Source of the DNA: Spirochaetota bacterium
GTDB taxonomy: Bacteria; Spirochaetota; UBA4802; UBA5368
Assembly (NCBI GenBank): GCA_004297825.1
Contig: SCSX01000063.1
Span: 1 to 64,000 of the forward strand
Length of the DNA stretch: 64,000 nucleotides
Direction of reading: 5' to 3'
Shown: piece after piece, positions 765 to 60,649 of the stretch
How positions within the stretch are numbered: the stretch's first letter is position 1
How the letters are laid out: every line of letters starts with the position of its first letter
The notes under the pieces: generated by a model
Seen by the model: the letters and a program-made list of their open reading frames with translations, nothing else
Told to the model about the DNA's origin: nothing
Database searches by the model: none
Made by a program: the position numbers and the translations under genes

Positions 765-907
765 TTTCAGTATTTAACAGGCACCTGAGATTTGCACTCT
801 GAGAATACGTCACGGGACGTCGAAAGTCAATAGAATTTGACAGCGAAAATGATTTGACGGATACTCCCCGTGTGCGAGGCTTTCCCGCTGCCGGGCCGGT
901 AACCAGG

Positions 908-1366
908 ATGAGCGATACCATACACGACATAGTTCAGAACAAGAAGGCGCGCTTCGAATACGAGATACTCGAGACCTTCGAGGCGGGGATCGTGCTCGTG
1001 GGCACGGAGGTGAAATCCGTCCGCCAGAAAAAGGTGAGCATCAACGAAGCCTACGCGCGCATATGGAAGGGCGAGGCCTACCTCACCGGCATGAACATCT
1101 CCGCCTACGAGATGGGCAACCGGTTCAACCACGAGCCCGTCAGGGACCGCAAGCTCCTCCTGCATACCCGCGAGATCAGGCGCCTTACCGGCAAACTCCA
1201 GGAGCGCGGCTACACGATGGTCCCCCTCAAGCTCTACTTCAAGAACGGGAAGGTCAAGGTGCTCCTGGGCCTGGCGAAGGGCAAGGCCCAGTATGACAAG
1301 CGCTCGACGATCAAGACGCGGGAAGCGAACCGGGAGCTGCAGCGGGAGATCAAGAAGCACCGTTAG
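908..1366 (+). CDS. smpB: SsrA-binding protein SmpB
   Basis: SmpB binds tmRNA and delivers it to stalled ribosomes for trans-translation. The 152-residue product has the family's conserved features: N-terminal NKKARFEYEILETFEAG, GTEVKSVR, the basic central GLAKGKAQYDKR and a lysine/arginine-rich tail ending REIKKHR. The open frame extends 18 codons upstream of 908, but family length (about 150-160 residues) and the usual SmpB beginning (a short polar stretch before NKKA) favour the ATG at 908, preceded by an AGG at short spacing. No ssrA gene is seen in this window. Confidence 0.96.
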   Translation: MSDTIHDIVQNKKARFEYEILETFEAGIVLVGTEVKSVRQKKVSINEAYARIWKGEAYLTGMNISAYEMGNRFNHEPVRDRKLLLHTREIRRLTGKLQERGYTMVPLKLYFKNGKVKVLLGLAKGKAQYDKRSTIKTREANRELQREIKKHR

Positions 1367-1485
1367 CCGGTAGGACGTACGCCACGCATTATGCGTTTTT
1401 TCGTCATCTTCGCGCGCCTGCCGCGGTGCGATTCAGGCCGGGGCGCCCCAGGGGCGCCGATATTACTTTTCCGGAGGCACCCACA

Positions 1486-2613
1486 ATGCCGGACATGAAT
1501 TCCGAACATAAAAATCCGCCCAGAAGGGTTAACGGGTATACCGCGACGTTCGGCGATAAAGCCCTCGAACGGGACTACTTCGTACACGAATACGGACGCC
1601 TGGGAAGGTATCTCCGGTTTTTCCTCTCCGCCGGCGCGCTCCTGTACTTCATGTTCCTGGTACCGGACTACCTGGTCTTTGGCGCGGAACCGCGCTTTCT
1701 TTTCCTTTTCGCCCTCCGCGCGCTTTTTGTTTTCGTTTCGCTCGTCACGCTCCTTGCGCTAAAAAAGCCGGCGAACCTTCCCGTCATGCACCGGTGGATA
1801 ACGGGATACCTGGCGCTCAATTGCCTCAATTTCATCGCGGTGCTGACACTTTATGAAAAAGGCAACCCCTACATCCAGGGATTCAGCGTGATCATGGTCA
1901 TCCTGGGAATCTTTCTCGTCCCCAACCGCTGGGTATTATCGGTGACCATAGCCGTCGCCGTCATAATCTCGTATACGGCGCTGCTCGTTACTTCGCCGGG
2001 ACGCCTGACCGGCTTTGAAATCGCCGCGATAATCACGTACCTCGTGCTGGCCCTCGTCCTGGGCGCGTTTTCGATGCTGCGCGGAGAGTATTCGAAGCGG
2101 CTGCAATACCTCACGACCAGGGACCTGGAAAGAATGACCGTCACCGATGCGCTCACGGGGGTGTTCAACAGAAAAAAATTCGACGACGAGCTCTCGCGAT
2201 GGATCATGATCGCGTACCGGTACCACGGCCCTTTCAGCCTCGTGCTCATCGACATCGACAATTTCAAGAAGATAAACGACACCCACGGCCACCGCGCCGG
2301 CGACGCCGTCCTCACCGGCATAGCAATGCTCGTCTCGACGCAGATACGCGAAATCGACCTGTTCGCGCGCTGGGGGGGCGAGGAGTTCGCCCTGCTCCTG
2401 CCCCAGACGGGGCGCGTGCAGGCCGCCGTTCTGGCCGACCGTATCCGCGCGGTGATCGAAAAGCATCAATTTCCCAGGATAGGACGGGTTACCTGCAGCT
2501 TCGGGATCACGGAATACCTCCCGGAGGATACCGCGGAAAGCCTGTTCATCCGCGTGGACGGCCTGCTCTACACGGCGAAGTCGAATGGGAAGAACTGTGT
2601 GGTGAGCGGCTGA
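1486..2613 (+). CDS. Membrane-anchored diguanylate cyclase (GGDEF)
   Basis: This protein makes c-di-GMP from two GTP. The ATG at 1486 has a GGAGG nine bases upstream, which is better than the upstream GTG at 1426; the product is 375 residues. Residues ~35-205 hold about six hydrophobic helices, a membrane sensor of unassigned type. The GGDEF domain begins near DALTGVFNRKKF and contains DIDNFKKINDTHGH and the intact active site RWGGEEF. An RxxD inhibitory site (REID) stands five residues before it, so product feedback inhibition is expected. The stimulus is unknown. It sits alone between smpB and a small unknown gene. Confidence 0.93.
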   Translation: MPDMNSEHKNPPRRVNGYTATFGDKALERDYFVHEYGRLGRYLRFFLSAGALLYFMFLVPDYLVFGAEPRFLFLFALRALFVFVSLVTLLALKKPANLPVMHRWITGYLALNCLNFIAVLTLYEKGNPYIQGFSVIMVILGIFLVPNRWVLSVTIAVAVIISYTALLVTSPGRLTGFEIAAIITYLVLALVLGAFSMLRGEYSKRLQYLTTRDLERMTVTDALTGVFNRKKFDDELSRWIMIAYRYHGPFSLVLIDIDNFKKINDTHGHRAGDAVLTGIAMLVSTQIREIDLFARWGGEEFALLLPQTGRVQAAVLADRIRAVIEKHQFPRIGRVTCSFGITEYLPEDTAESLFIRVDGLLYTAKSNGKNCVVSG

Positions 2614-2742
2614 GCGCCCGGGACGGGGTTGCGCCGGGTCGCCGCACCGCTTCAAATTTATCCGATTAATATCCACTTATGAGATTAATTGCTGGTAATT
2701 TCAACATAACATGCTAAACTGATCATTACCACGAGGCGAACT

Positions 2743-3093
2743 ATGCAATTTAAAACCATCTTGTCCGAGCGAAGGAGCTACCAGTCGCTTACCATTTCGA
2801 AAAAGGACATCGAATCGACCGTACGCAGCAAGGCGAAAAGCATCATCAAGAACGATTGGACCAAGGAAGACCCCTTCGTGCGCACCAGGGAGGTGCGTTT
2901 CATCCTGGGCGGCAAGAGGATGCTCTCCCCGGTGGAGGTGCATTTTTCCAGGGGTGAAATCGCAGAGGCCGGCGACCGTTATCCCATCTTGATCCACATA
3001 GAGTTCGACACCCATAAGACCGCGCCCATCGGGATTGGACATGCGTCGAAGAGCGGGGATGTCGAGTTCGACCTTTTCGAAGCGATGAACTAG
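2743..3093 (+). CDS. Hypothetical protein, 116 residues
   Basis: I do not recognise this family. The product is soluble, charged, without signal peptide or membrane helix. A GAGG lies at good spacing before the ATG, and the upstream 129 bp are AT-rich relative to neighbours, compatible with a promoter. Visible motifs are only an N-terminal SERRSYQSLTISKKDIE and a central block of alternating beta-like strands (VRFILGGKRMLSPVEVHF). It could be a small regulatory or PilZ-like beta protein, but the PilZ residues RxxxR and DxSxxG are not present. Support for coding is the ribosome site and codon use; function unknown. Confidence 0.6.
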   Translation: MQFKTILSERRSYQSLTISKKDIESTVRSKAKSIIKNDWTKEDPFVRTREVRFILGGKRMLSPVEVHFSRGEIAEAGDRYPILIHIEFDTHKTAPIGIGHASKSGDVEFDLFEAMN

Positions 3094-3309
3094 CGCGTTT
3101 TCCCGTCCGACCAACCAGATGCCATACGCTCACCAGCCCCCGGGAGGGGGTTGTTTCCGTATTTATCTCACCCACGAAAACTCCCGGACAGCCGGCGACG
3201 GGAATTTCATCCCCCCGACAAGCGTGCGTTCCGTGAAATCCGGCATGCCGTTAAGTGCTTGCCTGGACGCACGGGATGCGGTAGCGTTATTCAAGACGCC
3301 GGACATCGC

Positions 3310-6002
3310 ATGACGCCATTTTTTATTAACGGGGGTCCGATATAAGCACGCCTGCGGATTTCGCTTCCTGGTCCGGCGACGGCTCTTTCGGGCGGTGGGC
3401 GACGGACGAGTACGGCCTTCCCTGCTATGATTACGCTCCGCCCGAAAGCGCTCCCCGCGCGCCCCAGGTCACCGAGGACGGCGTCTTCCGCGCCCCCTGG
3501 CACCAGGCCGGGAACCGCCGCCTGACCGCCGCGCTTCACGCCGACGGCAGTACCGAGCTCTACGCGTCCGACCGCGGATTGTTCCGCATAACGCCCTTCG
3601 AACCGCGCCTGGGCACGGTGGGCGGGGCGCTCGCGATGCTCTGTTTCCCGGGTACGGAACCCGTACCGCTCCTCAGGGGACTTCTGCCCCCGGAAAGCGC
3701 CATGGAGGTCCGCTTCGGGATGGGATACGCGCGTTTCGCATACGAGGTGCGCGGTACGCGCGTGGGGATCACCCACTGGCTTCCCGACGATAATTCCCCG
3801 GCCGTGGTCACCGACATGCGCATAACGCCCGGTCCCCAGGCGCCGGAGCGGCTTATGCTCGCGCACGGCGTCGCCGCGTGGTTCATCGACTTCGACCCCG
3901 TTTGTTCCGGATGGAGGAGGGAGCGCTTCGGCCGCGCGCCGGTACTAAGGCTTCTTTCGCTTGTCTCGCGCTACCTGCTCTACCCGCTGCGCCTCAACAC
4001 GAACTGGAGGAGAATGCGTTTCGCCCGCTCTTTCACTTACAGGGTCGAATCGGCGACCGCGGGGGAGATTCATGTCTTTCCGGAGCGGCGCGCGGGGAAG
4101 CGCTTTGACCCCCGGGCGTTATCGCCCCGCCAGGAATTTCCTCAGACCTTCTTTAGCGGCGATGCGGGCCGGGGTGAACAAACATGCGCGGTCCGGGCGG
4201 TGCCGTTTTCGTCGGCCCGGGAGGTACTGGGCGCGCTCGCGCGGGGGAACGGATTCTCAGGCACGAAGGAATATCGGAACCCCGTGAACCTGGCACATTC
4301 GTTCGCGCTCGCGCCCCGAAATACCCAGGATTTCCGCGTCGTCTGGGGCTATGCGGACAGGGCCGAGGTGGAGACGGCCGCGCGGGCGCTGTACCATGCA
4401 TCCATGGAAAACCACATGGCCGCGCGCCGTAAGGACGCGTTTTTTTTCAGCGTGCCGGGGATTCCGTGGGTGGAACGCGAATGGACCTGGCATGCGGGAC
4501 AGCTTCGCGACGCCGCGATGTACGACCGCTGTCACGACAGCCATACCGTGCGCCAGGGCGGGGCGTACTATTTCGTCCAGGGCGTGGACGGCGCGCCGCG
4601 GGACCACGCCCTGTTCGCGGCGGCGCTGTCGTATATCGATCCGCCGCTCGCGCGTGAAATCCTCGTGACCATGCTGCGCGCCACGCACGCGGACGGCACC
4701 CTGCCCTACGCCCTCTACGGATACGGCATGTCCTCGGGATTCGGGCTTCACGGGGTCTCGGGCGACCTGCATCTCTTCTTCCTGTGGGCGCTCACCGAGT
4801 ATGTCTTCGCGACGCGCGACTTCGCCTTCCTGGACGAGATCCATCCGTATCATCCCGCCGGCACGGTGTCCCCGCGCACGGTGAAGAGCGCCGTTGCGCA
4901 GTACTGCCGTTATGTCATGGAGCGCACGGGCACCGGCGCCCACGGACTCCTGCGCTCCGGCACCGGCGACTGGAACGATTTCATCCAGTTTCACGCGAAG
5001 CGCCGCCGCGCCTACATCCGGGACGGTGAATCGACGTACACCACCGCGATGGCGCTCTACGTGCTCCCGCACACCGCCGCACTCGCCGCGTCATGGGACG
5101 ATGCACTTGCAGGGAAACTGTACCGATTCACCGAACGGCTCAGGGCGGCGCTTCTCCGGCAGTGGAACGGGCGGCAGCTCATTCGAAGCTGGGATGGCAG
5201 GGGAAACGCGATCGGCGGCGATGCGCTCTTCATGGAGCACCACGCCTGGGCCCTTGCCTCGGGGGCGCTCCCCGGCGCCATGGCCGACACCATAGCCGAC
5301 GCGATCCGTGAAACGCTCGACGCGCCGTCTCCCTGCGGGGCGCACATCCTCGCTCCCCCCGCGCGGCTGCGGTTCGATTTCCTCCCCTCCGGATGGGACA
5401 CCAACGGCGGCGTCTGGCCGGCGGCGAATGCGATCCTCACCTGGGGATACGGCGCGCGCCGCCCCGCGTACGCGCGCGCGAGCCTCTTTAAAAACACGCT
5501 CTGCGCCCACGCGGAGGCTTACCCGGACATCTGGTTTGGCACGTGGAGCGGGCCGGACAGCTACAACGCCCGTTATGCGGAAAACGCCGGGGAGACCTTC
5601 TACCACATCACGCCCATGGCCGACTTCCCCGTCATGAACGCGAACGTGCACGCCTCCCCCATCCTCGCCGCGCTCAGGACCTGCGGCGTGGAGCCGGACG
5701 CATTTGGATTTCGCATAACGCCACGGCTTCCCGACCCGGAGTGGTCCCTGAAATGTGCCCTCCTTGAAATTGAAAAACGCGAGGGCTCACTTTCTTTCCT
5801 CTACCGGGCGCCATCCGCCGCGCAGTCGGGAACGCTCACATTCACGGTGGAGGATCCGCTGTGCGCAGCGCCGGCGATGTCGATTGTTGCGGACGGGAGG
5901 GAGATTTCCTTCGAGCGGACCGGGGATGCGTGCGTGAGGTTTGTGCTGCCCTGCGCGCCGGGTGTCTCTCTTAAAGTGCGAGTAACACGCAATAAAAATT
6001 AA
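3310..6002 (+). CDS. GH94/GH36-like glycoside phosphorylase or hydrolase, 5' end apparently frameshifted
   Basis: A carbohydrate-active enzyme of the GH94/GH36-like (alpha/alpha)6 group. Family hallmarks: an N-terminal beta region with SGDGSFGRWATDEYGLP and WHQAGNRRLTA, then YDRCHDSHTVRQGGAYYFVQ, a DWND motif in SGTGDWNDFIQF carrying the presumed catalytic Asp, and the C-terminal NGGVWPAANAILTWG and GTWSGPDSYNARY. Clear coding extends upstream of the first in-frame initiator (TTG 3579) back to a stop at 3327, with no ATG, GTG or TTG in that stretch. An ATG at 3310 joins this frame if one base is added to the five-G run at 3331-3335. I therefore set the start at 3310 and flag a frameshift. Substrate not inferable; no secretion signal. 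Confidence 0.82.
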
Positions 6003-26016: not shown

Positions 26017-26166
26017 CCACACCGCGGCCTCACCGGTCGGTACCGGGTTTCGAACCGGATATGCGCACGGGTGCTTTCCCATCGTCCCGATTTTATGTTG
26101 ACAAGCCCGTTTCCGGGCCCGTTAAATAAGATCACCTTCACCTGGAATCCCGACAGGAGCATACAC

Positions 26167-28659
26167 GTGAAAGCGATCATCATGGCCGGCGGCGAGGGCA
26201 CGCGCCTGCGCCCCCTCACCTGCAACCGCCCCAAGCCCATGATCCCGGTCATCAACAAACCGGTGCTTGAACATATCGTGAACCTTTTACGAAAAAAAGG
26301 CATCATCGACATCGTCATCAGTTGTTTCTACCTTCCGGAAAACATCCAGAACTATTTCGGCGACGGCTCGGAATGGAACGTGAACATTTCCTATTCGGTG
26401 GAGGAATCCCCCATGGGAACCGCGGGGGGAGTGAAGAAGGCCGTCGGCCGCGCGCACGAATCTATGCTCGTGCTCTCCGGCGACGGCGTGGTGGATTTCG
26501 ATATCGATCGCGTAAGGGAATTTCACGAACGGAATAATTCCTCCTTCACCATCGTGCTCACCCACGTGACCGAGCCCACCGAGTACGGCATCGTGATCAC
26601 CGCCCCGGACGGCCGTATCGATAAATTCCTCGAGAAGCCGGCCTGGAGCGAGGTGTTCAGCGATACCGTCAACACGGGGATGTACATCATAGAGCCCGAA
26701 ATCATCAACGAGCATATCCCGGAAGGGACCAGGTTCGATTTCTCCATGGACCTTTTCCCCATCCTCCAGCGCCTGGGGATTCCCATGTACGGCCACGTCG
26801 CGGAAGGCTACTGGTGCGATGTGGGAAACCTGGGAGCGTACAGGGACGTTCACCAGGCGATTCTCGAGGGCCGCGTGGGAATCGACTTCCCCGGGAAAAA
26901 GATCGGGGACAACGTCTGGGTGGGACGAAACGTCGAAATAGCGCCTAACGCGGTGCTGCGCGGCCCCGTCATACTCGGGAATTTCGTGCGCATCAAGCGC
27001 GGCGCGGAGGTGTCGGAATTCTCGGTCGTGGGCGACAACTGCGTGATCGAGGAAAACGCGACGGTACGAAGGAGCATCCTCCTGCACAACACGCTGGTGG
27101 GACCCAAGTGCCACCTGCGCGGCGCGCTCATAGGGAAACGCTGCGTGCTCGGGGAAGGCGTCGCCATCTACGAGGGCGCGGTGGTGAGCGACGACTGCCA
27201 GATCGGCAGCGCCGTACAGATTCCCTCCGGGATCAGGGTTTGGCCCGAAAAGATAATCGAGCAGGGGGCGACGCTCACGGCCGACCTCATCTGGGGGCAG
27301 ACCGAGAAAAAGACGCTCTTCGGCAGCGAAGGGATAAGCGGTTCCTTCAATATCCGGATCACGCCCGAATTCGGCGCGAAGCTCGGTTCCGCCCTTGGGG
27401 CCTTCCTGGGCGGGGCTACGACCGTGGTGATAAGCCGGGACGCCTCGCTGGCCGCGCGCATCATTAAGCGGGCGGTCTCTTCGGGGCTCCTCTCCATGGG
27501 CGTCGAGGTGTACGACCTCGACGTGGAATCGATCCCCATTAACAGGTACTCGACCCGATTCCTGAACGCGGACATGGGGGTATACGTGCATATCGCACCC
27601 ATGACGGGACTCCAGTTCGTCCAGATCAAGCTTTTCAACAAGTTCGGATTCCAGATCCCCATCCAGGACGAGAAAAAGATCGAAAACATATTCTACCGTG
27701 GCGATTATCCGCGCAAGAACGCGTTCGAGGTGGGCAGGCTTATCTATCCCATCCACCATATCGAATCCTATATTGCGAACGCGGAAAACTACGCTGACCG
27801 CGAATCGCTCAGGAACAGCCGCATCAACGTGATCGTGGATTTTTTCAACGGGGCGTCGTCGCTCGTGCTCCCGGACCTCCTTGCGCGATTCGGCTGCACC
27901 CTTACCTCCCTGCGAGGACAGATCAAGGAATTCCAGAGCGAGGACGAGCTGAAAAAAGACGCGCGCAACGCGATCGAATCCGTGGTAAGCATGGCGCGCG
28001 CAAACGGCGAGATCGGGGCCATACTCGGCCCGCACGGCGAGAACATCACCATCGTGGACGAAACGGGCGCCATCCTTTCGAGCGACGACGTCGCGGCCCT
28101 GCTGTGTCTTCTCTACCTCAAGCACAGGAAGGTCCGGGGAATCGGCATCCCGGTGACGGCATCGGCGGTCATCGAGCGCATCAGCGCTTCCCAGGGGGGG
28201 ATCGTCCGTCGAACCAGCACCAAGCTCCGCCAGCCGGAGGGTATCGACGACCTTTTCCTGAATACGAGCGACGAGCGCCTTCCGTACCTCGAGCTCGAAT
28301 TCGATCCCATGATCGCGTTTCTCCTGGTTCTCGAACTCACCGCGCGCGAGAAGAACACCCTTACAGGGCTCAGGGCCTCCCTTCCCCAGGGAAGCATGCG
28401 GTCCGTTTCCCTGCACTGCACCACGGAGGAGAAGGCCTCGATCATGAAAGCGCTTTCAACCGCCGCGCACGGAACCGGCGCCAGCATGGAGCTCACGGAC
28501 GGGGTACGCGTGGTGCGCAAAGAGGCATGGATACTCATCATGCCCGATTCGGCGAATCCCCTCATCCACCTTTACGCGGAGGGCGAGTCACTTGAGGAAC
28601 GCGAGAAGATCATCACGGAATACTCCGGAATCATATCGAACCTTTCGAAATCCCAGTAA
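26167..28659 (+). CDS. Mannose-1-phosphate guanylyltransferase fused to phosphomannomutase-like domain
   Basis: The GTG at 26167 has AGGAG at seven bases and gives 830 residues. Residues 1-~235 are a nucleotidyltransferase: IIMAGGEGTRLRPLT and NRPKPMIPV. Residues ~250-370 are left-handed beta-helix hexapeptide repeats. The rest is phosphohexomutase-like, but the phosphoserine loop (TASHNP in mutases) reads VYVHIAPMTG, without the serine. This ManC/PMM-like fusion is known in cyanobacteria, actinobacteria and others. It likely makes NDP-mannose or another NDP-sugar for envelope glycans; the mutase half is probably regulatory. Confidence 0.88.
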   Translation: MKAIIMAGGEGTRLRPLTCNRPKPMIPVINKPVLEHIVNLLRKKGIIDIVISCFYLPENIQNYFGDGSEWNVNISYSVEESPMGTAGGVKKAVGRAHESMLVLSGDGVVDFDIDRVREFHERNNSSFTIVLTHVTEPTEYGIVITAPDGRIDKFLEKPAWSEVFSDTVNTGMYIIEPEIINEHIPEGTRFDFSMDLFPILQRLGIPMYGHVAEGYWCDVGNLGAYRDVHQAILEGRVGIDFPGKKIGDNVWVGRNVEIAPNAVLRGPVILGNFVRIKRGAEVSEFSVVGDNCVIEENATVRRSILLHNTLVGPKCHLRGALIGKRCVLGEGVAIYEGAVVSDDCQIGSAVQIPSGIRVWPEKIIEQGATLTADLIWGQTEKKTLFGSEGISGSFNIRITPEFGAKLGSALGAFLGGATTVVISRDASLAARIIKRAVSSGLLSMGVEVYDLDVESIPINRYSTRFLNADMGVYVHIAPMTGLQFVQIKLFNKFGFQIPIQDEKKIENIFYRGDYPRKNAFEVGRLIYPIHHIESYIANAENYADRESLRNSRINVIVDFFNGASSLVLPDLLARFGCTLTSLRGQIKEFQSEDELKKDARNAIESVVSMARANGEIGAILGPHGENITIVDETGAILSSDDVAALLCLLYLKHRKVRGIGIPVTASAVIERISASQGGIVRRTSTKLRQPEGIDDLFLNTSDERLPYLELEFDPMIAFLLVLELTAREKNTLTGLRASLPQGSMRSVSLHCTTEEKASIMKALSTAAHGTGASMELTDGVRVVRKEAWILIMPDSANPLIHLYAEGESLEEREKIITEYSGIISNLSKSQ

Positions 28660-40760: not shown

Positions 40761-41697
40761 TGCATTCCTCCTCGCGGAGAATTTCCCGTGCGGCGGCCGC
40801 GTCGCGCTCGAGCTGCGCGACGAGCTCCTGGACGGAGGGAAAACGCTTCTCGTCCCTGAGCCGCTCGATAAACTCGATTTCCATTCCCTGCCCGTAGAGA
40901 TCCCCCGAGAAATCGAACAGGTGGGCCTCCACCGTGCGGCCCGAGCCCGCGAACGTCGGGTTCGTCCCGATATTCAGCATGCCCCCGTGCATTGTGCCGC
41001 CCGCGAGCACCCTGACGGCATAGACCCCATCCTTGGGTATTACCTTGTCCGGGTCTCCGGGGAGCATGTTCGCGGTGGGGAATCCCAGGGTCCTTCCGCG
41101 TTCGGCGCCCTTCACCACCATGCCCGAAACCGTGTAACAGCGGCCCAGCAGCGAGGAGGCGAGTCTCACGTTGCCGTCCTCGATCTCCGTGCGGATCCAC
41201 GTGGAAGAGACCGGCCGCGAATAGAAGCTTTTCGGCTCCACGCGGGTCACGCCGAAGCCGCGATGCTTGGAAACCTCGCGCAGGAAATCGATATTCCCCT
41301 CGCGGTTCCTTCCAAAGGCGTGGTCATACCCCACCACCATGTCGATCACGCCCAGTTTTTTCAGGACTATCTCGTTGAAAAATTCGGTTGCGCTCATCTG
41401 CGCCATCGCGGCGGTGAAGTCGAGCAGGATGATGTGGGGTATGCCGCAGGATTGAATGGCGCGCACCTTTTCCTCCGCCGTCGTAAGAATGCGCGGGGGC
41501 GTTTTGGGCGTGATTATTTTCCTGGGATGATCCGTGAAGGTGATGACGATGGGCTCCCCGCCCTTCTGGCGCGCGATGTTAAGCACCATGGAAAATATCC
41601 GCATGTGTCCCAGGTGCACGCCGTCAAAGCTCCCCAGCGTGACGACGGGATTTTTAAATAGCCCCTTTTCTTCCGGTATGCCGCGCAAGACGGTCAC
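40744..41697 (-). CDS. ribF: Bifunctional riboflavin kinase/FAD synthetase
   Basis: RibF makes FMN then FAD from riboflavin. The 317-residue product starts with an FAD synthetase domain, GSFDGVHLGHMRIF being its nucleotidyltransferase signature and TWIRTEI another, and ends with the flavokinase barrel (TLGFPTANM, GVYAVRV, NIGTNPTF, FIERLRDEKRF). Its start overlaps the aroKC stop by four bases. Confidence 0.95.
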   Translation of the reverse strand: MTVLRGIPEEKGLFKNPVVTLGSFDGVHLGHMRIFSMVLNIARQKGGEPIVITFTDHPRKIITPKTPPRILTTAEEKVRAIQSCGIPHIILLDFTAAMAQMSATEFFNEIVLKKLGVIDMVVGYDHAFGRNREGNIDFLREVSKHRGFGVTRVEPKSFYSRPVSSTWIRTEIEDGNVRLASSLLGRCYTVSGMVVKGAERGRTLGFPTANMLPGDPDKVIPKDGVYAVRVLAGGTMHGGMLNIGTNPTFAGSGRTVEAHLFDFSGDLYGQGMEIEFIERLRDEKRFPSVQELVAQLERDAAAAREILREEECNGNLN

Positions 41698-43295
41698 GGG
41701 CGTCCCCCCGCGATTTTTTCCTGGATGGCAAGCGCATCGGCGAGCACGAGGGCGGTCATCGATTCGATCACCGGGATCACCCTGGGCACGATACAGGGGT
41801 CGTGTCTCCCCTCGATAAGTATCGCGCGCTCCGCACCCCGCACGTCTACGGTGGACTGGGGACGCGCGATCGACGGTGTCGGCTTGATTGCGATCCGGGC
41901 TGTGATATCGGCCCCGCTAGAAATGCCCCCCAGGATCCCGCCCGCGTTGTTGGAGAGGAAACCCGTACCGTCCATGGGATCGTTGTTGGCGCTGCCGCGC
42001 TGTCGCGCCGCCGCGAATCCGGATCCGAACTCCACGCCCTTGACGGCGCCTATGGAAAAAAAAGCCGCCCCCAGCCGCGCGTCCAGCTTGAAAAACACGG
42101 GATCGCCCAGCCCCGCCGGCACGTTTTTCACGATCAGCTTCACGATGCCGCCCACCGAATCGTGTTCGCGGCGCGCCGTCATGACCGCCTCTTCCATCGC
42201 GCCGGCCCTCTCCGGGTCGGCCGCGCGCACGGGGTTTTTTTCGATGAACGAGAGATCTTCACGCGTTCCCTCGATCCCGGCGATCTCCTGGGCGAAGGCG
42301 AAAATTGCAATGCCGTGCTTCCTTACGATCGAGAGCGCCACCGCCCCCGCGGCGACCCTTCCCGCGGTCTCGCGGCCGGACGAGCGTCCGCCGCCGCGAT
42401 GGTCGCGCATGCCGTACTTTTTCCAGAAGGTGAAATCGGCGTGCCCGGGGCGGAATACCTCGCGCAGCGCCTCGTACTTGGTCGAATCCTGGTCCCTGTT
42501 GTACACGACCAGGCACAGCGGAGTGCCGGTCGTCTTCCCCTCGAACACGCCCGAGAGAATGTGCACCGCGTCATCCTCGCTGCGGGGCGTGGTCACCGCG
42601 CTCTGTCCCGGGCGCCTGCGATCGAGCTCCGCCTGGATGTCGGCCGGTGAAACCGGGATGCCGGGTGGCAGGCCGTCCATGACGGCTCCCACCGCCGGCC
42701 CGTGGCTCTCCCCGAAGGTAGTCGTTCTGATAATCTCCCCGAAGGTGCTGGGCGAATGCATGCGGGCGCTCATGAGGGAGGAGAGTATTTCGGCGATCTC
42801 GCGGTGCGCGTCGCGTTCGTTCTCCGCCGTGACGGTAAAGGTCATATCAGAAAGGTGCTCCACCGATTCATAGAGCCGCGAAACGCGCGCCTCGAATTCC
42901 TGGAGGCCGTCGGCGCACGAAAGGAAGGGCGGGAGACCGGTCTTCTGCATCCTTTCCCATAGAAGGTGTATCGGCGCCTTGAGGAGAATCAGGATGGAGT
43001 CCTCGAGGAGCAGCCTCCTCGAGTCGGGGTCGGCCATGGTGCCGCCCCCGGTCGCGATCACGCACCAGTCCCGTCCCGCGAGCTCCCGGACGGTCCTGCG
43101 CTCCCATTCGCGAAACGCGGGCTCCCCTTCCCGCGCGCATATCTCGCGGCAGGTGCCGGGCTCGCCGGACTCACGCGCGCATATCTCCTCGAGGAGCGTA
43201 TCGGTCTCCACGAAGCGCAGGCCGGTCAGTTCCGCGAGCTTCGCGCCGATCGTGCTCTTGCCGCTGCACTTGGGTCCTGTGATTACTATTCTCAT
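41694..43295 (-). CDS. aroKC: Fused shikimate kinase and chorismate synthase
   Basis: 533 residues joining two shikimate-pathway enzymes. Residues 1-~173 are a shikimate kinase: P-loop GPKCSGKST (7-15), ETDTLLEE and TGGGTMAD. From about 182 on is a complete chorismate synthase (about 350 residues): FGEIIRTTTFGESHGP, GIPVSPADIQAELDRRRPGQS, SEDDAVHILSG, YGMRDHRGGGRSSGRET and a conserved end. The frame is continuous with no stop, and an internal ATG near residue 179 could also initiate a free AroC. The two steps are not consecutive (EPSP synthase lies between). Confidence 0.93.
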   Translation of the reverse strand: MRIVITGPKCSGKSTIGAKLAELTGLRFVETDTLLEEICARESGEPGTCREICAREGEPAFREWERRTVRELAGRDWCVIATGGGTMADPDSRRLLLEDSILILLKAPIHLLWERMQKTGLPPFLSCADGLQEFEARVSRLYESVEHLSDMTFTVTAENERDAHREIAEILSSLMSARMHSPSTFGEIIRTTTFGESHGPAVGAVMDGLPPGIPVSPADIQAELDRRRPGQSAVTTPRSEDDAVHILSGVFEGKTTGTPLCLVVYNRDQDSTKYEALREVFRPGHADFTFWKKYGMRDHRGGGRSSGRETAGRVAAGAVALSIVRKHGIAIFAFAQEIAGIEGTREDLSFIEKNPVRAADPERAGAMEEAVMTARREHDSVGGIVKLIVKNVPAGLGDPVFFKLDARLGAAFFSIGAVKGVEFGSGFAAARQRGSANNDPMDGTGFLSNNAGGILGGISSGADITARIAIKPTPSIARPQSTVDVRGAERAILIEGRHDPCIVPRVIPVIESMTALVLADALAIQEKIAGGRP

Positions 43296-56376: not shown

Positions 56377-57195
56377 TTAAGCGCCAAAGTCCTTGGTGAC
56401 GATCCTTTTCGAAACCCTGTACGCGGTCCTTTTCAACATGGGAAAGCCCATGGTAAACATTGACGCCACGCGGTACATATCGCGAATCGCCTCGGCCTTC
56501 GCCATGTCGATGGGCTTCACATTGACCGGAAGACTGTATTTCTCGGGCTTGTCCTTGAGGATCGTGATGACCTTCAGTCCCCCGAACTCCTCCTTGCCGT
56601 AAATGCTCGCGTTGGGAAAATCCTTCTTCACCGCGGCAAGGCGCTTATCGGCCTTCTGGAGCACCTTCTGCCTCGAGTCAATGGTGAGCGCCCCGGTCGG
56701 ACAGTGGAACGCGCACGCCGGGATCTCCCGCGCATTGACGGTGCAGGCATGGCACTTGAAGGACTTGTATCGGACCAGGGGCTCCTCGGTCCCGTATTTG
56801 CTCAGGTCCTTTTCCAGAACGTGCGGGACCTTGTAGATGCACTCGTTCTCGCATGCGCCGCAGCCGATGCACTTCGCCTGGTCAATCACGACCCATCCGT
56901 CCCTCTTCGATATGGCCTTTTCGGGACATACGTTCAGGCAGTTGGGGATCTCGCAGTGATAGCATTTCTTGTGCATGATCATCCAAATAGGTTTCTCGGG
57001 ATTCGAGCGGTCTATGGGGAAGAACTTCACATGGTTGAACGTGATCGCCGTAAGCTCCTTGGGATTGGTGTACTCCGGTCCCGCGAAAAACTCCGTGTTT
57101 TCCGCGGGAAGGTTGTTCCACTGCTTGCATGCGACCTGGCAGGCCCTGCACCCGGAACACTTGGTGGTATCTACCAAAAATGATCTTTCTGACAT
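56377..57195 (-). CDS. fdhB: Formate dehydrogenase iron-sulfur (beta) subunit
   Basis: 272 residues with four [4Fe-4S] clusters: C13/C16/C19/C23 in CSGCRACQVAC, then CYHCEIPNCLNVCP, CIGCGACENEC and CHACTVNAREIPACAFHC. It has no signal peptide or C-terminal membrane helix, so it would be carried to the periplasm with the Tat-exported alpha subunit. It passes electrons from the alpha subunit to an acceptor such as cytochrome c3; no cytochrome b subunit is present here. It begins three bases after the alpha gene. Confidence 0.93.
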   Translation of the reverse strand: MSERSFLVDTTKCSGCRACQVACKQWNNLPAENTEFFAGPEYTNPKELTAITFNHVKFFPIDRSNPEKPIWMIMHKKCYHCEIPNCLNVCPEKAISKRDGWVVIDQAKCIGCGACENECIYKVPHVLEKDLSKYGTEEPLVRYKSFKCHACTVNAREIPACAFHCPTGALTIDSRQKVLQKADKRLAAVKKDFPNASIYGKEEFGGLKVITILKDKPEKYSLPVNVKPIDMAKAEAIRDMYRVASMFTMGFPMLKRTAYRVSKRIVTKDFGA

Positions 57196-57198
57196 GGC

Positions 57199-60171
57199 TT
57201 AGGCCTCCTTCTTGATATCTACCAGGAACGCCTTGAATTCCGGGATCATGGTATTGGCGTCGCCGATATTGGGGGTCAGCTGATTACAGCTGTCGCCCGT
57301 TGACGCACACCCCTGCCCGAAATGCCAGATCATTCCGACCATTTCCACGTTCTTGCCGTTCACCTTGAGGGGCTGTACCCGTTCGGTGACCAGCGCGTAC
57401 GCCGATATGCTTCCGCGCGCGTTGAGGATGCGAACCTTGTCCCCGTTCTTGATGCCCTTCGCTGCCGCGAGGCTTGGGCTTATCTCGCAGAACATGTCGG
57501 GAACAAGCTCGTTCAACCAGGGCAAGTTGCGCGTCATCGCGCCCGCCTGCCAGTGTTCCACCACGCGGTAAGACGTGCCTACATAGGGGAACCGCCCCGG
57601 GTCGCCAAATTCCGCGGCGATCGAATCGAGCTTCACCGCGGCGGGATTGAGCGCCTGCGAATTGAAGATATTCGTAGTCGGGCTCTCCCAGGGCTCATAG
57701 TGTTCGGTAAAAGGCCCGTCATTGAGTCCCGTGGGAGCGAAAAGCTTCGCCACGCCCTCGGGATTCATGATGAAGGGGTTTTTCTTGTCGGGGCCCAGAG
57801 CGGGACCGCCGTCGACGATATCGCCCTTCCACTTGCTGCCGGTCCATTTGACGACCCAGCGGTTTTCGTCCCACGGGGTTCCGTCGCGCTTCACCGCGGC
57901 CCTGTTGTAGATGATGCGGCGGTTGAGGGGCCAGCACCAGGACCATTCGGGAAACATCCCGATCTTGTTGGAGGCATCCTTTGCGCCCCTGCGCGCCATC
58001 ATGTTCCCCGACTCGGTGTAGGAACCGCAATAGAGCCAGTTTCCGCAGGTCGTGGAGCCATCGTCCTTGAGGTCCATGAACGTGACCATCTGTTTGCGCG
58101 ATTTCGTCTCGAACCCGTTGATCTCCTTGGCGACGAGGTGCGGTGAGGGCTCATGCTCGCCCGGCTCGGTATAGTTCCAGTTCGCCTTGACTATGGGATC
58201 CGGGAACTTCCCGCCGTCTTTTTTGTACATCGCCTGGAGCTCTTTCAGAATCATGTCGAGAATGTCAAGATCGCTCTTGGCCTCACCCGGGGCTTTGACG
58301 GCCTTGTAGCGCCACTGGGCCCACCTGCCCGAATTGGACACGCTTCCTTCCTTCTCGACCGACGAAGCGGCCGGGAGCAGGAATACCTCGGTCTTGACCT
58401 GTTTGCTGTTGACGCCTTCCCGTTTCCAGAAAATTGAGGAATCGGTTTCCCAGAGGTCGACGGCGACGAGCCAGTCCAGGTTTTCCATCGCCTTCGCGAT
58501 CCGGTTCGCATCGGGACCGCCTACGACGGGATTGGTCCCCATGTAGAACGCACCCTTCAGCAGCCCCTTATACATGTCGTCAAACACGATAATGTAGGGC
58601 GTAGGTTTCGCGAACTTGGGAAGCCAGTCGTAGCAGAAATCGTTTTCCTTTGTCGCCGCGTCGCCATAGAACGCCTTGAGCATGCTCACGAGGTACTTGG
58701 GCCTGTTCGCCCACCAGTTGATGCTCATGGGATCGTTGGTCTTGGGCGTGGTCTTGTTATATGCCTCCAGCGTGGGGTGCGCCTTTTCGCTCGGGCACGG
58801 CATATATCCCGTGATCAGGTGGAAAAGCAGCCCGTAGTCCGTGGAACCCTGTACGTTCGATTCCCCGCGCAGCGCATTGATGCCGCCGCCGGCAAGCCCC
58901 ATATTTCCCATGAGCGTCTGCATGATCGCATAGGCCCGCACGTTCTGGGTTCCCACCGTGTGCTGCGTGGTTCCCATGGCGTACATGATCGTGGCGACCT
59001 TGTCTGGCTTATGGGTGGAGCAGAATATATCGGCTACCTTGAGAAAGGTATCCTTAGAGCACCCGGTCGCGAGCTCGACCTTTTCAGGGGTATACCGCTC
59101 GTAATGCTTTTTCATGAGCTGGTATACGCACTGGGGATCCTTGAGCGTCTTGTCCTGCTTGGGCACCCCCTTGTCGTCGACCTGATACTGCCAGCTCTTC
59201 GTGTCGTATTTCCTTCCGCCGGCGTCATAACCGCTGAACAGCCCGTCGTTAAACGCGTAGGCCGGGTTTACAAGATACGATGCGTTGGTGTATTCCAGAA
59301 CGTATTCCTTCTGGATTTTATCATTCTGAAGCGCGTAATTGATCACCCCGTTCAGGAACGCAAGGTCCGAACCGGGACGCAGCGGAGCGTAGAGGTCCGC
59401 AAGCGAGGCCGATTTGGTAAAGCGGGGATCGACGACAACAAGCTTCGCACCGCGCTCCTCCTTAGCCTTGAGAACCCATTTAAAGGAGATGGGATGGTTT
59501 TCCGCGGCGTTGGATCCCATTAAAAGGATAACGTCCGCGTTCTTGATGTCGATCCAATGGTTCGTCATTGCACCGCGACCGAAAGATGCCGCCAGACCGG
59601 CGACAGTAGCGCTGTGTCAAATTCGAGCCTGGTGTTCCAGGTAGGTCACCCCCAGGAGCCTCATGAACTTGCTGAGCGCGTAGCATTCCTCGTTATCGAG
59701 TGCCGCGCCGCCCAGGCTCGCGATGGCAGGGGTTCTGTTCACCGTGACTCCGCCGGCCTTTTCAACGAAAGAGGCGTCGCGTGTCGCCTTGACCTTTTGC
59801 GCGATCATCTTCGCGGCGTCCTTCCAGGAGAGCTCCTCCCATTTATCGCCAAAGGGTTTCCGATACAGCACCTTGTCCAGACGTCTCTGGTTGACGCCTA
59901 CCTGGTACAGTGCGCTTCCCTTCGAGCAGAGCGAGCCCTGGTTGATTGGATGGTCCGGATCGCCTTCGATATTGACGATCTTGCCGTTTCTCGTTGAAAC
60001 GATCAGGCCGCACCCTACCCCGCAATAAGGGCAGATTGTGGTGCTTTCCCTGGCACCCTGCATTTTATTCGGGACGGACTTGCATCCGCTAAGGAACGAT
60101 ACGCCGCCCAGGAAGGCACCGGCAGCCGTTACGCCCGAGAGCTTTAGGAAATCACGTCTGGAGATGGGCAT
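57199..60171 (-). CDS. fdhA: Formate dehydrogenase catalytic (alpha) subunit, selenoprotein with in-frame UGA
   Basis: One gene of 990 residues interrupted by a UGA at 59619-59617 (residue 185), read as selenocysteine. The context RI-U-HSATVAGLAASFGRGAMTNHW is the Sec-formate-dehydrogenase active site (Mo/W-bis-MGD). Other features: Tat signal SRRDFLKLSG; [4Fe-4S] motif CPYCGVGC with C47, C50, C54 and C82; then molybdopterin regions and a terminal molydopterin-binding domain. The SECIS hairpin lies just after the UGA. AGGAGG precedes the ATG. Periplasmic formate oxidation or, less likely, CO2 reduction. FdnG/FDH-1-like. Confidence 0.95.
59588..59619 (-). promoter_or_regulatory. Bacterial SECIS element with its UGA codon
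   Basis: After the UGA (59619-59617) and 12 bases, GTCGCC (59604-59599) pairs with GGCGGC (59593-59588) around a GGTCT loop. The loop sequence and spacing match the SelB-binding hairpin of E. coli fdhF/fdnG. It lies in the coding region. Confidence 0.85.
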
Positions 60172-60649
60172 ATGAATCCTCCTGCCATTATTTAACAGAC
60201 ATAGTTATGCAATAATTTGCTAAAAATAACACATTAAAAGGCTGATTGAAGGATAGCGAAACAGGTGTAACGTGGTGCATTGAAATCCCCAATCATGAAA
60301 GCAGAGTTATTACCGAACCGGCCCCGCCGTGCTTTGGAAGCCCGCGCGACAAATCCCGATACCCTCGGATGATCGACCCGGGGGGTTACCCTTCTTTACA
60401 AGATTGGGAGGCAGGTCGATTTCTCTCGCTGCCTGCGGTCCTGCTCCATGGCTTGCGCTTTAGGAACAGTGACTCGAAGAGGTTCATTTTGTTTTAGGAT
60501 GGGGCCCCTATCTGTCAATGAATTTTTTGCATTTTTCCGGGTCGCCAATCGTATCATATAAAAAATATCTTTACAAATGCCGTCAGGGAGCCTATGAAAT
60601 TATTGAATAACCCCTTTCAGACTAAAATCAGGTATCCAGAACCTTTATC
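60172..60649. other. Gene-free interval upstream of fdhA
   Basis: About 480 bp between divergent genes. The 83-codon frame at 60246-60497 has no ribosome site or familiar sequence and is not called. The first 70 bp next to fdhA are AT-rich and probably carry its promoter, but no clear -35/-10 or sigma-54 box could be assigned. Confidence 0.5.

Follow-up and report, generated by a model that had tools for sequence, protein, structure and literature searches.

On the minus strand of the window, as the whole stretch of 64,000 nucleotides analysed here is called, lies a pair of formate dehydrogenase genes, fdhA and fdhB, preceded by a leader with a riboswitch (Table 1). The 5' open reading frame of fdhA starts with the ATG at 60171 and extends to 59617 (184 residues), where it ends at the TGA 59619-59617. 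Past this codon the same frame remains open down to the stop at 57199; counted from its first ATG, the 3' frame (59568-57199) encodes 789 residues. In a preliminary description of the locus, the two frames were read as one enzyme by translation of the UGA, and the positions given there are exact. Apart from this TGA, no stop interrupts the 990 codons. The residue encoded by the UGA is followed by HSATVAGLAA, precisely the peptide that had been proposed. Translated through the UGA, the protein gives a full-length match of 1294.4 bits to TIGR01553 (formate dehydrogenase-N alpha; cut-off 814.2) and contains the Pfam domains TAT_signal, Molybdop_Fe4S4, Molybdopterin and Molydop_binding. A PDB search returned chains of the Desulfovibrio vulgaris Sec enzyme FdhAB as the best matches, and the UGA residue aligns with the metal-ligand position of the PDB chains, which is Sec or, in some chains, Cys. 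The earlier assignment to the Sec formate dehydrogenases is thereby borne out: fdhA is almost certainly an ordinary gene of the FdnG/FdhA type in which one UGA is read as Sec. The frame, the family, the position of Sec, the constraint on the SECIS element, the sel machinery and the riboswitch match are results of computation. Elsewhere in the window, shikimate kinase and chorismate synthase are fused in one open reading frame (41694-43295, minus strand), and nucleotidyltransferase, hexapeptide and phosphomannomutase domains are fused in one protein (26071-28659, plus strand).

Table 1. Features of the fdhAB locus (positions in the window)
Feature	Position	Strand	Remarks
Candidate -35 hexamer TTGACA	60513..60518	-	just before the riboswitch; invariant in 8 aligned leaders
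Moco/Tuco riboswitch aptamer (RF01055), P3-less	60375..60491	-	fdhA leader; 43.1 bits, gathering score 36
fdhA (formate dehydrogenase alpha subunit)	57199..60171	-	990 aa with Sec185; Tat signal, [4Fe-4S] and bis-MGD domains
Bacterial SECIS element (RF01989 SECIS_3)	59564..59622	-	GGUCU apical loop 18 nt after UGA
UGA codon, Sec residue 185	59617..59619	-	PDB alignment and homologue codons
fdhB (iron-sulfur beta subunit)	56377..57195	-	272 aa; begins right after the fdhA stop

The codon at the Sec185 position was compared among 80 homologues from other assemblies, in which it is TGA in 71 and TGC or TGT in nine. The nearest relatives of the organism are uncultured Spirochaetota assemblies, and the closest homologues also have TGA at this codon. 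Because TGA is retained in so large a proportion of the homologues, the closest included, a sequencing error that turned TGC or TGT into TGA is excluded.

The sequence downstream of the UGA matches the Rfam model SECIS_3 with an E value of 8e-9 and 47.4 bits, which falls short of the gathering score (63). The corresponding sequences of relatives score similarly, between 47 and 54 bits, and likewise remain below 63, so that for this clade the curated cut-off appears to be set too high. The apical hairpin consists of 7 bp, U-GUCGCC [GGUCU] GGCGGC-A; its loop stands at the same 18-nt spacing from the UGA as the AGUCU of the SECIS_3 model. The distance of 12 bases at which the preliminary description placed the GGTCT hairpin holds for the stem, which begins at the 12th nucleotide, but not for the loop. 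Folding of the 45 nt after the UGA, which had been suggested as a check, yields the hairpin, but its energy alone is unexceptional (z -0.68; 26% of synonymous recodings fold equally well). As the fold of the single sequence is not significant, comparative tests were used, and the evidence beyond chance consists of the Rfam match, a peak of synonymous conservation and covariation at wobble positions. Among the Sec-type genes, synonymous conservation at codons 185-196 is the highest of 519 windows (0.172 compared with a mean of 0.034, sd 0.031). In the apical stem, the codons of Val190 and Ala194 covary at the wobble base: among 68 distinct Sec sequences the pair is C-G in 31 and T-A in 21. All Sec sequences have a U in the middle of the loop motif, whereas five of the nine Cys sequences have another base there. 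Cys homologues form a less stable hairpin, with a mean energy of -6.2 kcal/mol versus -9.9 kcal/mol in the Sec homologues; the p value of 0.0016 is only indicative because homologous sequences are related. Taken as a whole, the SECIS_3 pair list failed to separate Sec from Cys homologues (lower stem 5.4 versus 6.2 pairs); among the SECIS_3 pairs, only those of the apical stem tell the two types apart. The proposed match to the known bacterial SECIS is upheld by the SECIS_3 E value, albeit below the gathering score, the synonymous peak and the covariation.

The genome (4.9 Mb in 96 contigs, 95% complete) was surveyed for the genes required for Sec synthesis and insertion, whose presence the preliminary description had left to be verified. 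All four were found above their curated cut-offs: selA with 481 bits, selB with 281 bits, selC (tRNA-Sec) with 73.5 bits and selD with 381 bits. selC, selA and selB form one cluster on contig 37, and selD is located on contig 25. The selD gene (L010 1501-2427, plus strand) likewise encodes a selenoprotein: it has an in-frame TGA of its own near the N-terminus, in a GAGU motif (residue 28 of the stretch translated). An in-frame TGA also occurs in two more genes that resemble formate dehydrogenase genes, one at L113 4198-7296 (minus strand), followed by FDH-beta and FdhE-like genes, and one at L115 1922-4624 (plus strand).

The nine homologues with TGC or TGT, one base off TGA, might suggest a pseudogene, a Cys-type formate dehydrogenase split by a nonsense mutation or a sequencing error, but TGA at the exact codon in the other 71 rules this out, and with a frame that has no second stop, a synonymous conservation peak downstream of the UGA and a full sel gene set there is next to no chance that it is correct. 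Hardly more credible is a UGA that is sometimes obeyed to release a 184-residue product with an independent function. The 3' part does have a possible start codon, at 59568, although one is expected in any long frame. Arguing against a separate short product are the end of the 184-residue piece within the cofactor domain and the lack of the Fe-S domain and the Tat signal in the 3' piece, and the conservation points to one continuous protein.

The product of fdhB contains Fer4 domains and matches TIGR01582 with 126 bits, below the cut-off of 334.7. It lacks a membrane helix (maximal 19-residue hydropathy 0.7). In the closest relatives too, fdhB lies directly downstream of fdhA, and no gene for a gamma or membrane subunit adjoins fdhAB in the neighbourhood of the locus. 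Without an adjoining gamma subunit, the unit looks like a soluble, periplasmic two-subunit FdhAB. Formate dehydrogenase N of Escherichia coli is a molybdenum-cofactor enzyme with a gamma subunit in the membrane. The spirochaete enzyme shares with it (FdnG, PDB 1kqf) the TIGR01553 family and the SECIS_3 architecture, but not the membrane subunit next to the gene pair. It is more similar to the W/Sec FdhAB of D. vulgaris Hildenborough (PDB 6sdr, 6sdv and others), with which it aligns over residues 1 to 988 and has in common Sec at the same position, the Tat signal and two subunits with no adjoining membrane subunit. It differs from the D. vulgaris enzyme in that it comes from another phylum, its gene is preceded by a Moco/Tuco riboswitch, and tungsten as its metal is a prediction.

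The riboswitch, the inclusion of fdhB in the unit and the likely link to tungsten were overlooked in the preliminary description. The aptamer in the fdhA leader scores above the gathering score of RF01055, and the P3 positions are deleted in the alignment, which places it with the P3-less, Tuco-type form of the Moco RNA motif (PMC2408646). The P3 stem is missing in every riboswitch that was aligned, namely the three that this genome contains and those from relatives. A Moco/Tuco riboswitch also precedes fdhA in eight relatives (L021, L022, L023, L031, L032, L033, L045 and L047), which include both Sec and Cys types. At the candidate -35 hexamer a consensus promoter scan called no promoter. A terminator scan revealed no intrinsic terminator on the minus strand between the riboswitch and fdhA, and no clear switch that would sequester the ribosome-binding site was seen in the leader, the fold of which is unremarkable. 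In contrast to the described Tuco-type riboswitches, the fdhA aptamer heads a selenoprotein message; formate dehydrogenase and selenocysteine are not discussed in the main text of that study (PMC2408646). A literature search in a limited collection found no paper on a selenoprotein formate dehydrogenase gene headed by a tungsten-type riboswitch.

The two other P3-less Moco/Tuco riboswitches of the genome precede genes of different kinds. One (L117 3407-3529, minus strand) immediately precedes the gene for a TonB-dependent receptor (844-3312, minus strand), the product of which is a candidate outer-membrane importer of tungstate or molybdate, or of a carrier thereof. The other (L116 2820-2942, minus strand) lies upstream of a gene cluster (2653-726, minus strand) that contains a gene for a class III cytochrome c-like protein (cytochrome c3-type), followed by those for a hydrogenase maturation protease and the small subunit of a NiFe/NiFeSe hydrogenase; here a cofactor riboswitch heads a non-molybdoenzyme cluster.

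Clues to the metal of FdhA come from the riboswitch and the gene content. P3-less forms of the Moco RNA accompany Tuco use in 17 of 19 organisms, which is a correlation (PMC2408646). The genome contains six open reading frames of the AOR (aldehyde oxidoreductase) family and two TupA-like genes, one of them followed by a TupB-like permease gene; the TupA and TupB matches are below the curated cut-offs. A genome search did not detect the tungstate transporter WtpA, and ModA is present. The P3-less riboswitch together with the TupA/TupB-like genes and the six AOR-family genes suggests a tungsten enzyme. Alternatively, the same Sec formate dehydrogenase may be a Mo enzyme and the P3-less riboswitch may sense Moco. 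The presence of ModA, TupA matches that fall short of the equivalog cut-off and the correlative nature of the P3 rule are in favor of molybdenum, whereas the lack of P3 in all of the aligned riboswitches, the abundance of AOR-family genes and the identity of the closest characterised enzyme, W-FdhAB (PMC9774666), make it the less likely choice. In the more plausible reading, FdhA is a tungsten enzyme and the riboswitch is probably of the tungsten-cofactor type, an inference from sequence that we prefer with some confidence.

According to the proposed mechanism, transcription probably begins a short distance ahead of the P3-less riboswitch. The ribosome would pass the UGA at codon 185, where SelB and tRNA-Sec, recruited by the SECIS hairpin downstream, would insert Sec, and Sec185 would ligate the metal, Mo or W, in the bis-MGD cofactor. 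FdhA would then function as the catalytic subunit of a periplasmic-type, presumably Tat-exported formate dehydrogenase FdhAB, from which FdhB would carry electrons away. With a riboswitch at the start of the transcript, expression of fdhA should depend also on the supply of the cofactor, probably the tungsten cofactor.

A wider model, which we advance tentatively and regard as possible rather than probable, is that a single mRNA integrates sensing of the tungsten cofactor in the leader with selenium gating at the SECIS and the UGA, and that the other P3-less riboswitches, upstream of the cytochrome c3-NiFe hydrogenase genes and the TonB receptor gene, form with it a tungsten-cofactor regulon that possibly swaps hydrogenase for formate dehydrogenase. 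Formate dehydrogenase alpha is, along with SelD, the most widespread of the bacterial selenoproteins (PMC5029168), and for this reason the fdhA gene itself teaches little beyond its correct annotation. The useful part, a modest addition, is that in uncultured Spirochaetota a riboswitch of the tungsten type stands in front of the gene for a selenoprotein formate dehydrogenase; this combination provides a genomic hint at the metal of the enzyme and a testable regulon. If the model is true, expression of FdhA would be tuned to the supply of both the tungsten cofactor and selenium.
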